From the NCBI GenBank assembly GCA_026702615.1, contig JAPPBY010000005.1, positions 1 through 64,000 on the forward strand: a stretch of 64,000 nt of DNA, given 5' to 3'. The stretch comes from Chloroflexota bacterium. Lineage in GTDB: Bacteria > Chloroflexota > Dehalococcoidia > Tepidiformales > Tepidiformaceae. A program made the translations under genes and the position numbers. Positions 56,697-63,845 of this stretch are shown in pieces. Every line of letters begins with the position of its first letter. Position 1 is the first letter of the stretch. Below the pieces are notes generated by a model. The model made no database searches. It was given only the letters and a program-made list of their open reading frames with translations, and was not told where the DNA came from.

Positions 56697-58184
56697 GTGT
56701 CTACTGCCTGGGTCATAGCGGTCTTCTCGGTTTATTTCTCGCTCCTCATCGTGATTGCGGTCGTCGGCGCCCGGCGCATGAGGAACATGTCCGAGTACGT
56801 GCTCGGCGGCAGGCGGCTGAGCAGCTTCACCGCCGCTCTCAGCGCCGGCTCTTCCACGACGAGCGCCTGGACCATGCTCGCCCTGCCCGCGCTGGCCTAT
56901 GTGAGCGGCCTCGTGGAGATGTGGATTCCCCTGGCGGCGGCAGTCGGTCTCTGGCTCAGCTGGACCTTCGTCGCCAGGCGGCTCCGCCGCTACACCATCG
57001 CCGCCAACGACGTCCTCACCATCCCCGAGTTCTTCGAGGTGCGCTTCGGCGACACGACCGGGATTCTGCGGGGGATGACGGCTGCCATCACCATCCTCTT
57101 CGTCGTCTTCTACGTGAGCTCCGGGCTGGTGGGCGGCTCCAAGCTGCTCGACACGATGTTCGGCATCGAAACCAACACCGGCATCCTGCTGACCTTTGGG
57201 GCGGTGGCCTCCTACACCCTTATCGGCGGTTTTCTCGCCGTCTCGCGCACGGATGTCTTCCAGGCGCTCCTCATGATCACCAGCCTCACCATCATCGCCA
57301 CCGTGCTCATCAGCTCGACAGGCAGCCCGTTCGCGGATACGACCGGCGAGAACCAGGGATTCTTCAATCCGTTTACCAGTAGCACCGGTTCTTCGATCGA
57401 TGCGGTCTTCATCCTCTCCGCCCTCGGGTGGGCGTTTGGCGCGTTTGGCGCGCAGCGGATTTTGCAGCGCTTCATGGCCATTGAGCGTGAGGACCACATC
57501 CCCAGAAGCCGCAACCTGTCCTTCGTGTGGCTGGTGCTCGTCTACTCCCTCGCGCTAATCGTGGGTCTGGTCGCGCACAGCGCCCTGACGGAGAGTGCGA
57601 TGCTGGGCGAGGTCACTGATCCGGAGCGCATCTACGTGGTGGTGTCGGAGGTCTTCTTCCATCCCGCGGTGACCGGCCTCCTCCTGACCGCCGTGATCGC
57701 GGCCGTCATGAGCACCGCCGACTCTCAGTTGCTCCTCGCCTCCGCCGTGGCCACCGACGACATGCCGGTTCTCAAGCGCATCGCCTACGCCATCTCGGAA
57801 AACCGCCGCGTCTGGCTGGGCCGCCTCCTTCTCGTCATCATCGGCGGTGTCGGCGTGCTGGTCTCCGTCTACTTCCCCGGTTCGATCAATGAGCTGGTCG
57901 CCTACGCCTGGGGCGGGATGGGGGCGGCCTTCGGGCCGGTCACGATCCTGGCCCTGTTCTGGAGGCGCTTCAATTTCCCGGGGGCGCTCGCCTCCATCGT
58001 CGTCGGGACCGTCGTTGCCTCAATCTGGGCTTTCAGCGACGGCGGACCGTCCGGCATGTGGGACATGCAGCCCGCCACGCCGGGCTTCATCCTCGCCTCG
58101 GTCGTGGCGGTCGTCGTCACGCTCGCCACGCCGCCCCCGTCCCGAGAGGTCGTGCACCTCTTCGACAGGGTCAACGCCCGCTAG
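56697..58184 (+). CDS. Sodium:solute symporter (SSS family, PutP-like)
   Basis: 495 aa from GTG 56697 with GAGG 5 nt upstream. About 13 TM helices. SSS marks: YVLGGRRLSSFTAALSAGSSTTSAWTMLALPALAY (TM2, sodium site), GGFLAVSRTDVFQALLM, FGAQRILQRFMAIE and AVIAAVMSTADSQLL. The last two are close to PutP-type proline/pantothenate symporters. Substrate unknown. The stop shares CTAG with the convergent SulP gene. Confidence 0.92.
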   Translation: MSTAWVIAVFSVYFSLLIVIAVVGARRMRNMSEYVLGGRRLSSFTAALSAGSSTTSAWTMLALPALAYVSGLVEMWIPLAAAVGLWLSWTFVARRLRRYTIAANDVLTIPEFFEVRFGDTTGILRGMTAAITILFVVFYVSSGLVGGSKLLDTMFGIETNTGILLTFGAVASYTLIGGFLAVSRTDVFQALLMITSLTIIATVLISSTGSPFADTTGENQGFFNPFTSSTGSSIDAVFILSALGWAFGAFGAQRILQRFMAIEREDHIPRSRNLSFVWLVLVYSLALIVGLVAHSALTESAMLGEVTDPERIYVVVSEVFFHPAVTGLLLTAVIAAVMSTADSQLLLASAVATDDMPVLKRIAYAISENRRVWLGRLLLVIIGGVGVLVSVYFPGSINELVAYAWGGMGAAFGPVTILALFWRRFNFPGALASIVVGTVVASIWAFSDGGPSGMWDMQPATPGFILASVVAVVVTLATPPPSREVVHLFDRVNAR

Positions 58185-59848
58185 CTGGAGAGCGCCAGCA
58201 GTCGCGCCGCGATCTCCCGTGCTTCCTCGAGATCCTCCGCGAAGCGATCCTCGGGAACCCGGTCCAGCACGTTCAGCGACTCCATCGCCCTGCGCGACGA
58301 TCCCCTGAGGCCCATCACGATGACCTCCGTGTCCTGCGCGATCGCCGTGTCTACCAGCTGTTCGACTACGAGGGCCGCGCTGTCGTCCACGTAAACCGTC
58401 TCGGAGAAGTCGAGGATGACCACCTCGTGGTCGCGGATGTCCATGCTGATGGTGGTGATCAGCTTGCTCGAGGAAGCCACCGTGAAGCTCCCACGCAGCG
58501 CGACGAGGCCCACTCGTGCGGAGAACGCGTCGATATCGGCCGGACTCTCTTCGCCGGTAAAGAAGCTGCGGTCCAGCAGCGGCACCGAGACCACGCTGTC
58601 GAGCTGCAGCCGCTCGAACTGCCGGGCGCTGGCCATGCCCGCCGCAATCAGGCCGATCGCAACCGCGGATACCAGGTCCAGGAACACCGTCATGGCCAGG
58701 GTGATCAGCATCACCAGCAGGTGCTCACGTTGCACGTGCAAGAGCCGCGTGAGGAAGCGCCAGTCGATGATGTCCCAGCCGACCTTCATCAGGATGCCCG
58801 CGAGCACGGCCTGGGGAATCTCCTCCGCGAGGGGTCCAAGGCCCAGCACCAGTGCTAAGAGGATCGCCGCCCGCAATACGCCCGAGACCGGCGTGCTGCC
58901 ACCGGCTCGCAGGTTCACCACCGTGCCAGGGGTAGCGCCGGCGCCCGCCAGCCCTCCGGAGAGCGCCGCCGCCACGTTGCCGATGCCCTGCCCCATCAGT
59001 TCCTTGTTCGGGTTGTGCTGCGTCCGCGTCATCGAGTCGGCGATGAGCGAGGTCAGCAGGCTGTCGATCGCTCCCAGTAGCGCGAGGGTGATGGCTGGCT
59101 GCACCATGCTTGCCAGGAAGCCCGCGTCGAGCGCAGGCAGGCCGAAGTCGGGCAGCCCCCTGGGCACGGCGCCGATGTCGCCGATCACGGGCGTGTTCGA
59201 GAGCCAGAGCACGCCGATGACGGTTCCCACGACGAGCGCCGCCAGCGTCGGCGGCAGGAACTTCCGGAACTGCTGCGGCCAGAGGATGCCTACCAGCAGG
59301 GTCGCCGCGGCGATCGCGAACGCCTCGAAGTTGACGTCCCCGAGCACCTCCGGCCAGGCCCGCATCGCCTTGAGTGGCCCGCCCGTGGGCACGGCCCACC
59401 CCAGGAACGGCAGCGTCTGGATGATGATGATGATGATCCCGATGCCCGACATGAACCCGGACGTCACCGAGTAGGGCGTGTACGAGATGAATCGCCCGAT
59501 GCGCAGGACGCCCAGGAGAATCTGGATCACCCCGGCCATCATCGCGATCGCGAGGGCCTTTGAGAGATCGCCGTCGGCGTGCACGGTGAAGATGACCGCC
59601 ATGGCCACCGACGTCGGCGCCGTGGGACCCGAAATCTGCGACCTCGTGCCGCCGAACACCGCCGCGAAGAAGCCCACGGCGATCGCCCCGTACAGCCCTG
59701 CCGCCGCCCCCAGACCCGAGGCCACGCCGAAGGCGAGCGCGATCGGCAGTCCGACGACCGCCGAGGTGATGCCGCCGAAGATGTCCCCGCGGAACGTATC
59801 GAGGCTATAGCTCACCCGTGGCATGGCTTGGGAAAGGCGATCCGTCAT
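58181..59848 (-). CDS. SulP family anion transporter with C-terminal STAS domain
   Basis: 555 aa, ATG 59848; ATG 59824 is an alternative. Membrane domain with GITSAVVGLPIALAFGVASGLGAAAGLYGAI, GGTRSQISGPTAPTSVAMA, then LLGAIDSLLTSLIADSMTRTQHNPNKELMGQGIGNVAAAL, typical SulP/SLC26 substrate-site sequence. The cytosolic STAS domain (about 430-545, with VVILDFSETVYVDDSAAL in the anti-sigma antagonist-like position) is intact. SulP proteins move sulfate, bicarbonate or dicarboxylates. The adjacent beta-carbonic anhydrase favours bicarbonate (inference). Last gene of a three-gene operon. Confidence 0.94.
   Translation of the reverse strand: MTDRLSQAMPRVSYSLDTFRGDIFGGITSAVVGLPIALAFGVASGLGAAAGLYGAIAVGFFAAVFGGTRSQISGPTAPTSVAMAVIFTVHADGDLSKALAIAMMAGVIQILLGVLRIGRFISYTPYSVTSGFMSGIGIIIIIIQTLPFLGWAVPTGGPLKAMRAWPEVLGDVNFEAFAIAAATLLVGILWPQQFRKFLPPTLAALVVGTVIGVLWLSNTPVIGDIGAVPRGLPDFGLPALDAGFLASMVQPAITLALLGAIDSLLTSLIADSMTRTQHNPNKELMGQGIGNVAAALSGGLAGAGATPGTVVNLRAGGSTPVSGVLRAAILLALVLGLGPLAEEIPQAVLAGILMKVGWDIIDWRFLTRLLHVQREHLLVMLITLAMTVFLDLVSAVAIGLIAAGMASARQFERLQLDSVVSVPLLDRSFFTGEESPADIDAFSARVGLVALRGSFTVASSSKLITTISMDIRDHEVVILDFSETVYVDDSAALVVEQLVDTAIAQDTEVIVMGLRGSSRRAMESLNVLDRVPEDRFAEDLEEAREIAARLLALSS
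59420..59437 (-). repeat. Trinucleotide microsatellite (GAT)6
   Basis: Six tandem GAT units on the plus strand code for a run of Ile within a SulP TM helix. Slippage by one unit would keep the frame and change helix length by one residue. Confidence 0.85.
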
Positions 59849-59922
59849 AGCAAGAAGCCGGAAGCATACGAGAATGCCGGTCCCTTGTGGTGAACTCCGT
59901 CAGCTGCTCTGGCGGTCGCGAT

Positions 59923-60414
59923 CTAGGAGACCTCGTTCAGTTTCCCTGTCGCGCAGTCATAGACGAACCCGCGAATGTCGTCCGTGTTCGGGATGAACGG
60001 GCTTGCCTTGATGCGCGCGATCGACTGACGGACGTCGCCGTCGAGATCGTCAAACGCCTCCATCGCAAACGACGGCCGGATGCCCGTGTCGGCCGCGATC
60101 GCGTCTTTCACGTCGTCGTCGCGGAAGGTCATCATGCCGCAGTCGGTGTGGTGGATGAGCATGATCGAGGTGGTGCCCAGCAGCCGCTGCGAGATCGTGA
60201 GGGAGCGGATGGCGTCATCCGTCACGACGCCCCCCGCGTTGCGGATGACGTGCGCGTCGCCCACGTTGATGCCCAGCAGGGCGTGCGTGTCGAGTCGCGC
60301 GTCCATGCACGCCACCACCGCCAGCCCCAGCCCCGGTGGCGCGTGCGCATCACCCTTGTCGAAACTCGCGGCGTAGCTCGCGTTGTTCTCCAGGAGATCG
60401 TCGATCGCGGTCAT
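59923..60414 (-). CDS. Beta-class carbonic anhydrase
   Basis: 163 aa, ATG 60414. Zinc ligands C36 and D38-R40 dyad in CMDAR, then H89-x2-C92 in HHTDCGM, and the VIRNAGG loop, as in small bacterial beta-carbonic anhydrases (Rv1284/CanB-like type II). It interconverts CO2 and bicarbonate. It lies 30 bp after an NCS2-type permease gene and 74 bp before the SulP gene on the same strand, so a role in bicarbonate transport or pH balance is likely. Confidence 0.94.
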   Translation of the reverse strand: MTAIDDLLENNASYAASFDKGDAHAPPGLGLAVVACMDARLDTHALLGINVGDAHVIRNAGGVVTDDAIRSLTISQRLLGTTSIMLIHHTDCGMMTFRDDDVKDAIAADTGIRPSFAMEAFDDLDGDVRQSIARIKASPFIPNTDDIRGFVYDCATGKLNEVS

Positions 60415-60444
60415 TGGAGCCTCCCTTTGTGTTGGGGGCGCTCG

Positions 60445-62205
60445 TTAGGAGTCCCCCTCGGGCGGGACGACGCGGACGGCGATGATATCCGTGTCGTGGT
60501 ACTGCTGGTGTGTCACCGATTCGGCGTAGCTCCGGAGCAGCACGAGCGAAAGTTCCTCTTCGACAGCCGTCAAAGAGTCGTGCTCCTGGATCTGCCGGAT
60601 CTGGTCCTCGAGGTTGGCGCCCGCGCCTCCCCCGATGAACTCGAGGTCCGCCGTCGTCCCCTCGCTCGAGGCAAGCACGACGAGCTGGCGTTCGTCCTTC
60701 GGTTTCTCGTCCTCGTCATCGCCGCCCAGGCTCAGGTCAAGCGGCGCCAGCGTCAGGAGCGTCTCCTCGGCGACCGCGGTCAGCCGCTCCTGCATCGCCG
60801 AGTCCCAGTTCCGGCGTCTCGCGAATCTCGTGATGAACTCGTTCAGATCCGGCAGGGCGTCGACATTGAGCTGCGACTGGAAACGCATGCGCCGCGGGTT
60901 CGTCAGCTCCAGGTACAGGATCATCACGATCGCGGCGAGCCCGCCCGTCGTGATCCCGCTCTTCAGCAGCGCGTTGCCGACGGCCCCGATGTCCGGCAAA
61001 TGGAATAGCTCGAACTGGAACGATGCCGCGATCCAGAAGCACACGCCGGCGACTGCGATTTTCTCCTGGCTCTGCTCGTTCTGGATGACCGTCCGCGCGC
61101 CTTCGACGAAGAGTGCGCCCGTCACCATGATCAGGTACCCCGTCATGACCGGCCCAGGGATGCTGCTGAGCACCGCCGACACCTTTGGCAGGAACGCCAC
61201 GATGATGAGGATGGCGCCGATGAAGTAGCCCACCCGCCGCGCCGCCACGCCCGTGATCTGCGTGAACGAGACCATGGCCGGGTTGATGGCGTTCGGCACC
61301 GTTCCCGCGAGCCCCGCGAGCAGATTGCTCGCGCCGGCCCCTGCCACCGCCCCCTGCACCTGCCGGAAGCTGACCGCGCGGTTGTCGCGCCAGGCGACCC
61401 GCTGCATCGCGATGGTCGCGCCGTTCGCCTGGATCGCGATGATCACGCCGAGGAAGAGGAACGCTGGCACCAGCGTCCAGAAGTCCACGCTGAAATCCAG
61501 CCTGAGCCCCGGCGACTCGCTCGGGACGCCCACCCAGTTCGCCGCCGTGATGCGTCCCGTATCGAAAATGCCGAGCGCCCCCGCCACGACGCAGCCGACC
61601 ACGATTCCCGCGAGCGGCCCCCAGAAGCGCAGGAACGCCGAGCCACGCAGCATCAACGCCGCCGCCACCACCATTGTCGCGAGCGCCGTCAGCGATGCCT
61701 CTTCCGGATCGGCGCTGGTGGCGTCGTCCAGCAGGTCGAACACCACCGAGGCCAGCGTGATCGACAGGATCATCATCACCGTGCCGCCCACCGTCGGCGT
61801 CACGAAGCGGCGCAGGATGAAGAGCCAGCGCGAGACGACGAGCTGCACGATCGCCGAGAGGACGACGAGCGTCGTCAGCGTCGCCGGCCCCCCGTCGACA
61901 AGGGCGGTGATGCAGAACGGGATGGCGAAGGCCGCCGTGAACATCGGCAGCACCGCCCCCGCCCCCACGAACCCGAGCTTCCGCACCTGGATGATAGTCG
62001 AGAGCCCCACCACCACCAGCGACGCGAACACCATCCACGTCACGTACGAGCCACCCCGGTCCGCCGCGTTGGCGACGATCACCGGCGTCACCAGTAGCGT
62101 TGCCGAGGCGATCAGGCTGAACTGCAGGCCATAGCCGAGGGAGCTCAGGAGGGGCGGCTTGTCGTCCGCCTCGTAGCGCGGGTGCTCGGGAGCTGCAGCG
62201 GCCAT
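60445..62205 (-). CDS. NCS2 (UraA/SLC23-fold) permease fused to a degenerate RsbW-like ATPase domain
   Basis: 586 aa, ATG 62205. The first about 435 residues are an NCS2-type transporter with about 14 TM segments (SLGYGLQFSLIASATLLVTPVIVANAA, TPTVGGTVMMILSITL, AGTVPNAINPAMVSFTQITGVAARRVGYFIG, PGPVMTGYLIMVTGALF). After it comes a cytosolic domain (about 445-580): LNEFITRFARRRNWDSAMQERLTAVAEETLLTL, an acidic loop, then ADLEFIGGGAGANLEDQI and LSLVLLRSYAESVTH. This aligns with the HATPase/RsbW anti-sigma kinase fold, but the N-box Asn and the DxGxG motif are not conserved. First gene of an operon with carbonic anhydrase and SulP-STAS. Transported substrate is unknown. Confidence 0.87.
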   Translation of the reverse strand: MAAAAPEHPRYEADDKPPLLSSLGYGLQFSLIASATLLVTPVIVANAADRGGSYVTWMVFASLVVVGLSTIIQVRKLGFVGAGAVLPMFTAAFAIPFCITALVDGGPATLTTLVVLSAIVQLVVSRWLFILRRFVTPTVGGTVMMILSITLASVVFDLLDDATSADPEEASLTALATMVVAAALMLRGSAFLRFWGPLAGIVVGCVVAGALGIFDTGRITAANWVGVPSESPGLRLDFSVDFWTLVPAFLFLGVIIAIQANGATIAMQRVAWRDNRAVSFRQVQGAVAGAGASNLLAGLAGTVPNAINPAMVSFTQITGVAARRVGYFIGAILIIVAFLPKVSAVLSSIPGPVMTGYLIMVTGALFVEGARTVIQNEQSQEKIAVAGVCFWIAASFQFELFHLPDIGAVGNALLKSGITTGGLAAIVMILYLELTNPRRMRFQSQLNVDALPDLNEFITRFARRRNWDSAMQERLTAVAEETLLTLAPLDLSLGGDDEDEKPKDERQLVVLASSEGTTADLEFIGGGAGANLEDQIRQIQEHDSLTAVEEELSLVLLRSYAESVTHQQYHDTDIIAVRVVPPEGDS

Positions 62206-62696: not shown

Positions 62697-63845
62697 ATGA
62701 TTGACTGGCTTGGCATCGAGCATCTCTTCGAACTGTCCACCGGGGAGAAGATCGCCGGGATATTCACGCCTCTCGCCATCTTCGCCGCCTTCGCCATCGC
62801 GACGGTCGTCCTGCCGGGGAGGTGGGTCCCCGGTTACGTAACGGACCCGGCGACCGGCGAACCCCGCCGGTACCGCCTCAACGGCCTCCTCGTCTTTGTC
62901 GTTGCGGTGCTCGTGTGGGGCTTCGAGGTCATCCCCGGACTCGATCGGGAGTTCTTCTACCGAACCTCGCTCTACGCCGTCGCCGGTGGAACCGGCTTCT
63001 GCCTGCTCTTCACGGCGCTGGCCGTGTACACCCAGCCGAGGGTCGAGAACCGCAATCCCATCATCGACTTCTACCTTGGCCGTATCCAGGAGCTGAGGTT
63101 CTTCGGCGACCGCCTCGACCTGAAGATGACCTTCTACGTCGTCGGCGGGACGATGCTGGGCATCAACGCCATGTCCGGTGCGGCCTGGCACTACGAGCAG
63201 TTCAGCCCGACCAACGAGGTCAACCTCGGCGTCTTCCTCTACGCCGCTATCTTCACCTTTTACGTCTTCGACTACTTCGTCTTCGAGCGCGTCCAGCTCT
63301 ACACCTTCGACCTCATCCACGAGCGGATGGGCTTCAAGATGTTCTGGGGCGACAACATCGTCTACGGGTGGCTGTTCATCATTCCCCTGTACGGCATGGC
63401 CGCCTACCCGGACCCCGGCTTCGGCACCGCCTGGACGTACGTCTGGATCATCGGCGCGTCCGCGCTCTTCCTCGTCGGATGGAGCATCTCGCGCGGCGCC
63501 AACCTGCAGAAGTACACCTTCAAGCGCTGGCCTGACCGCAAGTTCCTGGGCATCATCGAGCCCCGCTACATCCAGGCCGGCGAACGCAAGATCCTGACCA
63601 GCGGCTACTGGGGCGCCGCCCGCCACTTCAACTACATGGGCGAGGGCTTCTTTGCGCTGGCCGTGGGCCTCTCTTTCGGCCACTTCGACGTCGCCTGGTC
63701 GTGGGCCTACGCGATCTTCGTCATCTCCATGTTCACCTGGCGCCAGGTCGAGGACGACCGCGCCTGCGCGGAGAAATACGGCCCCGAGAAGTGGGCCGAG
63801 TACCAGGAGAAGGTCCCTTACCGCATCGTCCCGGGGATTTACTAG
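62697..63845 (+). CDS. ERG4/ERG24-family sterol/isoprenoid reductase homologue
   Basis: 382 aa, ATG 62697. About nine TM helices. The C-terminal signature of the ERG4/ERG24 family is present: LTSGYWGAARHFNYMGEG (about 301-318), then W.QVEDDRACAEKYGPEKWAEY.EKVPYRIVPGIY (352-382), where the family binds NADPH. Family members reduce C14, C7 or C24 double bonds of sterols. Other motifs: NPIIDFYLGR, WGDNIVYGWLFIIP, NLQKYTFKRWP. Substrate could be a sterol, hopanoid precursor or another polycyclic isoprenoid. No other sterol genes are in the window. Confidence 0.88.
   Translation: MIDWLGIEHLFELSTGEKIAGIFTPLAIFAAFAIATVVLPGRWVPGYVTDPATGEPRRYRLNGLLVFVVAVLVWGFEVIPGLDREFFYRTSLYAVAGGTGFCLLFTALAVYTQPRVENRNPIIDFYLGRIQELRFFGDRLDLKMTFYVVGGTMLGINAMSGAAWHYEQFSPTNEVNLGVFLYAAIFTFYVFDYFVFERVQLYTFDLIHERMGFKMFWGDNIVYGWLFIIPLYGMAAYPDPGFGTAWTYVWIIGASALFLVGWSISRGANLQKYTFKRWPDRKFLGIIEPRYIQAGERKILTSGYWGAARHFNYMGEGFFALAVGLSFGHFDVAWSWAYAIFVISMFTWRQVEDDRACAEKYGPEKWAEYQEKVPYRIVPGIY

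Follow-up and report, generated by a model that had tools for sequence, protein, structure and literature searches.

The stretch of DNA analysed here, called the window, comprises 64,000 nucleotides (positions 1 to 64,000 of contig JAPPBY010000005.1 from a Chloroflexota bacterium, assembly GCA_026702615.1) and carries a cluster of three adjacent genes on its minus strand. The first gene (60445..62205, 586 aa) codes for a permease with a predicted NCS2/SLC23 fold and a predicted C-terminal pseudo-RsbW domain, the second (59923..60414, 163 aa) for a beta-carbonic anhydrase (CA), and the third (58181..59848, 555 aa) for a BicA-like SulP transporter with a C-terminal STAS domain. On balance, and with some reserve, we favour the view that CA and SulP form an inorganic-carbon (Ci) pair which, in one genus, has been joined to a transporter that brings its own fixed regulatory or dimerisation tail.

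The layout described in the first-pass annotation, with gaps of 30 bp between NCS2 and CA and of 74 bp between CA and SulP, is borne out by the ORF coordinates and by Pfam, as is the STAS tail on the SulP protein. All domain matches exceed the gathering cut-offs (E-values of 4.9e-31 for Xan_ur_permease, 4.6e-13 for Pro_CA, 3.4e-80 for Sulfate_transp and 8.7e-9 for STAS), and codon-position bias is strong in all three frames (GC3 0.89-0.91 versus GC2 0.44-0.47). The window lies on contig C16, and the genome to which it belongs measures 2.87 Mb in 38 contigs. Metagenome bins labelled Dehalococcoidia or Chloroflexi are the closest named records; going by isolate names, we take their hosts to be sponges.

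CA and the BicA-like SulP-STAS protein are a Ci pair of a known kind. Residues 2-162 of the CA (161 of 163) align with Rv1284 (1ylk), its closest solved relative (E 7.4e-60), with no notable difference between the two. Present are Cys36-x-Asp38-x-Arg40 and His89-x-x-Cys92, which we assume to provide the Cys-His-Cys zinc ligands and the Asp-Arg dyad. The SulP protein has both a Sulfate_transp and a STAS domain; its best solved match, aligned end to end, is the membrane domain of BicA (6ki1, E 1.4e-107), and 6ki2, apparently the STAS part of BicA, is matched with E 7e-6. It also matches the IDxLLT and GAGAT stretches of BicA, to which we presume an ion-site role that is not used as evidence here. 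The DDSAA motif of the STAS domain is kept in all 27 SulP locus rows, some of which are copies of one genome. Mycobacterial Rv3273 is an example of a fusion of a SulP with a CA. A precedent, the can2-sulP pair of A. ferrooxidans, has been published, and its authors describe SulPs of other clades as STAS fusions that have no association with a CA (PMC6458275). The feature common to that pair, to SulP-CA fusions (PMC6458275) and to the window is a beta-CA beside, or fused to, a presumed bicarbonate SulP; the window differs in that a single SulP combines a STAS domain with a neighbouring CA gene, and in that an NCS2 gene precedes the pair. A possible use for Ci is offered by the reductive citric acid cycle, which is largely present in sponge Chloroflexi according to PMC6306507.

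Among the 29 genomes of the phylum that have the NCS2 family (window included), the CA was found in 23 and the SulP in 22. Besides the window, 17 genomes have both, and the earlier proposal that the two genes are linked holds in that they are neighbours in 13 of the 17. As read from the positions of the matches, the arrangement is convergent in seven of seven genomes of genus g46 and tandem in six of six of genus g37. Both orientations of the neighbourhood are thus represented, but the lineages that keep it are few.

The C-terminal tail of the NCS2 protein (residues 436-586, 60448..60900, minus strand) had been described as an RsbW-like ATPase domain, and of this claim the fold stands while the ATPase does not. 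The AlphaFold2 model, built with 42 tail sequences, has a mean pLDDT of 78.5, with a poorly predicted middle stretch, and when it is used as query Foldseek returns UsfX, SpoIIAB and RsbW entries at ranks 1-19 (best E 3.1e-7). In VIA-align the predicted tail superposes on UsfX with Z 17.3 (rmsd 2.4, 115 aligned) and on RsbW with 16.8, ranks 1-10 covering Z 17.3-15.0; lower matches are SiaB (Z 11.9), LvrC (11.4) and histidine kinases (about 8). Pfam alone would be insufficient for assigning this fold, because the window tail has no match at E up to 10, and HATPase_c_2, which matches 4 of 42 tails (the window's not among them, best E 4.9e-5), is no commoner than the surely unrelated TADA2A-like_3rd (5 of 42, best E 0.0068). 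A search of the tail profile against PDB sequences gave three weak Notch matches only (best E 0.51).

The 42 tails comprise the window and 41 relatives, dereplicated by similarity from 82 rows; the orthologs L095 and L119, neither of them broken by stop codons, are not among these 42 rows. The N-box Asn (ExxxN) occurs in 1 of the 42, DxG and GxG in none. As we take these N, G1 and G2 motifs to be the ATP-binding motifs of RsbW-type kinases, the ATPase identity of the tail was rejected. Judged by its motifs, the tail is a pseudo-RsbW domain, neither an ATPase nor a canonical RsbW kinase. It shares its predicted fold with the anti-sigma kinases RsbW, SpoIIAB and UsfX (Z 15-17), from which it differs by being fused to a transporter and by having lost all three motifs. 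Invariant in 42 of 42 tails are a glutamate pair (480-481), Glu522, Asn531, Ser553 and His566; the last four residues point to conservation of the tail for a function distinct from canonical ATP binding.

The permease domain has lost the nucleobase signature as well. PF00860 matches the NCS2 protein with 108.3 bits (cut-off 27), and the model of the full protein superposes on UapA (5i6c) with Z 42.8 (rmsd 2.7, 419 aligned), on UraA (8oo1) with Z 40.5, on SLC26Dg with Z 31.4 and on BicA with Z 28.5. The glutamate in TM8 (E356 of UapA, E241 of UraA) is replaced by Gln259 in the window, and its column holds Q in 25, K in 8, E in 7 and R in 2 of the 42 sequences. The [Q/E]-N-x-G stretch of TM10, which we take to be the NAT motif, is lost in 42 of 42, its Q/E column being occupied by G, S, A, T or Y. 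With both replaced, the annotation as xanthine/uracil permease is doubtful. Compared with UraA and UapA (SLC23, NCS2), the window permease thus has a superposable predicted membrane domain, a TM8 Gln, no TM10 motif and an extra cytosolic domain of about 150 residues. These residues make it probable that the permease has given up canonical nucleobase transport; that its substrate is an anion, or a metabolite that releases CO2 on breakdown, is a guess.

The tail is a property of the permease family rather than of this locus. Of 301 genomes of the phylum, 29 have matches to the tail profile, 127 copies in all (1-6 per genome), and it is in exactly these 29 that the permease occurs. Of the copies, 120 lie in open frames of at least 510 aa, long enough that they would accommodate the fusion; in the window genome this holds for five of five tails (frames of 578-602 aa). 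Seven copies lie in shorter frames, three of which start less than 200 bases from the contig start and one of which (G266:C8) has a permease match. No clear free-standing tail was found among the 127 copies in the 301 genomes, the seven short-frame copies not all being resolved. The SulP is not seen at E 1e-20 in seven of the 29 tail-bearing genomes, some of which are incomplete bins. Since the tail occurs in all 29 permease genomes, in one to six copies and with or without this SulP, it is not a SulP-specific partner. Outside Chloroflexota the family was looked for only in the close-relative scan of genome_contigs, in plasmids and in viral contigs: the viral contigs gave no relative, and on plasmids there were permease matches in 75 records, none covering 80% of the query, and no match to the tail. 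Searches of an open-access library gave no described NCS2-RsbW fusion; in two papers on SAR202 and sponge Chloroflexi (PMC5395668, PMC6306507) the main text does not contain the words 'permease', 'carbonic anhydrase' or 'bicarbonate'.

The order of the three genes is fixed only within the genus of the window, and the idea of a widely conserved three-gene operon as the basis of a functional link was not upheld. Six of nine genomes of this genus (window included) have the NCS2 ortholog, and in six of six CA and then SulP follow collinearly. The other three show none of CA, SulP and NCS2 ortholog; one of these (G330) has paralogs, so that NCS2-tail genes are found in seven of the nine. Of 46 named loci from the close-relative scan, 5 have the triple, and these match genomes of the genus by identity; it is absent from 41. 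In 37 of the 46 there is neither CA nor SulP within the DNA covered, which spans at least 2 kb on each side in 29 of the 37. A phylum sample of 25 loci (L037-L061), partly from the same genomes, has no CA or SulP in the flanks covered. No NCS2-tail gene was found in any of 29 other genomes searched of the window's family. The genomes that carry relatives of the NCS2-tail gene with 62-73% identity bear the label 'same phylum', not same class. A horizontal transfer is possible.

The three may be chance neighbours that are not functionally linked, the NCS2 gene having been brought beside CA-SulP by a single move in the ancestor of one genus. This is a reasonable though less probable reading, and it does not exclude the joining of a Ci pair to a self-contained transporter, which leaves the link open. 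It would account for the triple being one clade in the tree (6 rows, support 99/86) and for its absence from all 25 loci of the phylum sample. However, order and short gaps persist down to about 84% sequence identity within the genus, the three genes are either all present or all absent there (6 genomes with, 3 without), and CA-NCS2 and SulP-NCS2 neighbourhoods occur elsewhere too.

In L105, L113 and L136 a CA lies upstream of NCS2, in the latter two between two NCS2 genes. These loci form a separate clade (3 rows, 99/99), in which L136 is a fragment covering 17% of the columns. The two clades imply that the contact of CA and NCS2 either arose twice or was ancestral and has been widely lost. 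In L098 the SulP is divergent from NCS2, and in all five loci read from f41 genomes 1.4-9.7 kb separate it from an NCS2-tail paralog. A rough estimate of chance, based on lineage counts that were chosen by hand, is about 0.002 for a CA beside NCS2 in at least two of 20 lineages and 0.02 for a SulP within 10 kb of NCS2 in at least three of 20. Within one class, 21 of the 27 genomes that have NCS2-tail genes also have the SulP, against none of the 9 that lack them (Fisher 5e-5, at genus level 0.015), a comparison that is confounded by descent and not used as proof, the sample membership of the 9 being inferred.

The contacts with a CA raise the question whether the NCS2 protein itself transports Ci or a small anion, the three genes being one Ci operon with two carriers around one CA. 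We regard this as rather unlikely. A CA does adjoin an NCS2-tail gene in two clades, downstream in that of the window and upstream in the other, for which the rough chance estimate is about 0.002; the residues of the nucleobase site are replaced, and the model also superposes on SLC26Dg and BicA. Yet the lineage counts behind that estimate are hand-chosen and one of the upstream loci is the fragment, 23 of 23 orthologs with at least 61% identity (L037-L056, L059-L061) are without CA and SulP in the flanks covered, and the paralogs have other neighbours (alpha/beta hydrolase, DUF1330, methyltransferase or sigma-factor genes).

The first-pass annotation had proposed that the two tails bind each other or a shared regulator. 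In its amended form the proposal is a transporter partner switch, in which the pseudo-RsbW tail would bind the STAS domain of the neighbouring SulP protein and tie bicarbonate uptake to a second solute, without any kinase activity. Such a switch is possible but unsupported, and we hold it to be improbable. Among the top structural matches of the predicted tail are RsbW-type domains solved with STAS antagonists (UsfX-RsfB 8ih8, RsbW-RsbV 6m37), the two tails come from the same cluster in six of six genomes of the genus, SulP genes lie near NCS2-tail genes in L098 and the five f41 genomes, and the conserved DDSAA motif would also fit. In addition, the SLC26/SulP-protein interactions known before PMC5703999 all involved the STAS domain, according to that paper. 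The same source describes a counterexample, however: in E. coli the SulP protein DauA contacts the transporter DctA through membrane domains, and the STAS domain of DauA in isolation does not bind DctA (PMC5703999). Against a switch there are also the seven tail-bearing genomes that show no such SulP, the several tail paralogs which most genomes have in other settings, and the loss of the ATP motifs. A broader version, in which a UraA-fold family with a dead RsbW regulator mirrors SLC26-STAS and the tails bind in this genus so that two carriers become one unit around the CA, seems to us just as improbable.

A fixed role of the tail in dimerisation or gating of its own transporter is most likely, and we favour it because the tail is family-wide, seven genomes do without the SulP, the ATP motifs are lost and DauA-DctA contact does not use the STAS domain. 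In the reading that we prefer, a Ci pair joined to a self-contained transporter, SulP would move bicarbonate and CA would equilibrate it with CO2 inside the cell, serving carboxylation reactions, pH balance or both. Upstream, in one genus of sponge-associated Chloroflexota, there is a transporter of predicted UraA/UapA fold from a paralog family, whose pseudo-RsbW C-terminal domain most likely takes the place that the STAS domain has in SLC26 and acts as a fixed dimerisation or gating domain.

Several points weigh against this reading. Bicarbonate is only the presumed substrate of the SulP, and the protein differs from BicA in scoring 515.5 where the NCBIfam BicA equivalog cut-off is 880. CA and SulP are on different contigs in 4 of the 17 genomes (genera g60, g54 and g168), where contig ends may hide an adjacency, and outside the window's genus their adjacency is confined to two genera of one family (f30). 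A promoter scan of the cluster gave no match (chance expectation just 0.4), so that a single transcript of the three genes is suggested by their spacing alone. Finally, CA or SulP also occurs near NCS2-tail genes in other lineages, so that the position of NCS2 beside the pair may not be due to chance alone.

The CA-SulP half of the locus is of a familiar kind, and the interest lies in the little-known transporter family. The role of SLC26 STAS domains has so far been explored incompletely, according to PMC8256260. A transporter family of related fold, with a tail that has the predicted partner fold of STAS but none of the kinase motifs, amounts to a natural experiment on the function of such tails. 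If the tails do bind each other, parts of a partner switch would have been reused for coupling two transporters. Even if they do not, marine and sponge Chloroflexota have a transporter family that is apt to be misnamed xanthine/uracil permease, its nucleobase motifs being gone.

The cluster is flanked by two plus-strand genes, both assigned by Pfam. A sodium:solute symporter (SSF; 56697..58184) is convergent with SulP, the stop codons sharing 4 bp, and lies within 0.8 kb of SulP in four of five named loci of the same genus; we consider it a flank of the cluster rather than a member. In L098 a relative of the symporter (70%) lies close to SulP; L034 and L071 have relatives (55-64%) in the vicinity of NCS2-tail paralogs. 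Upstream of NCS2 there is an ERG4/ERG24-family sterol-reductase-like gene (62697-63842), and a gene of this family is present in five of five named same-genus loci.

The surroundings of other family members were read with Pfam from one member per neighbour group. In five f41 loci the ortholog is preceded by genes for a PAS-LuxR regulator and an ion channel. The paralogs have various neighbours: an alpha/beta hydrolase gene, which one set keeps (L063, L070, L072), a DUF1330 gene, which another set keeps (L064, L066, L071), a methyltransferase gene, and in two loci of a single genus the genes for a VWA protein and a sigma factor. In L067 (G060:C12) and L069 (G010:C10) the genes upstream of the paralog code for a same-strand sigma-70/ECF-type sigma factor and VWA/YfbK-like proteins, and the occurrence of an RsbW-shaped tail beside a sigma factor is perhaps due to chance. 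In L063 (6958-9671, G000:C3) a 289-aa ORF corresponding to the N-terminus of the NCS2-tail paralog directly precedes a full-length copy, reflecting either a tandem duplication of part of the gene or an artefact of assembly.

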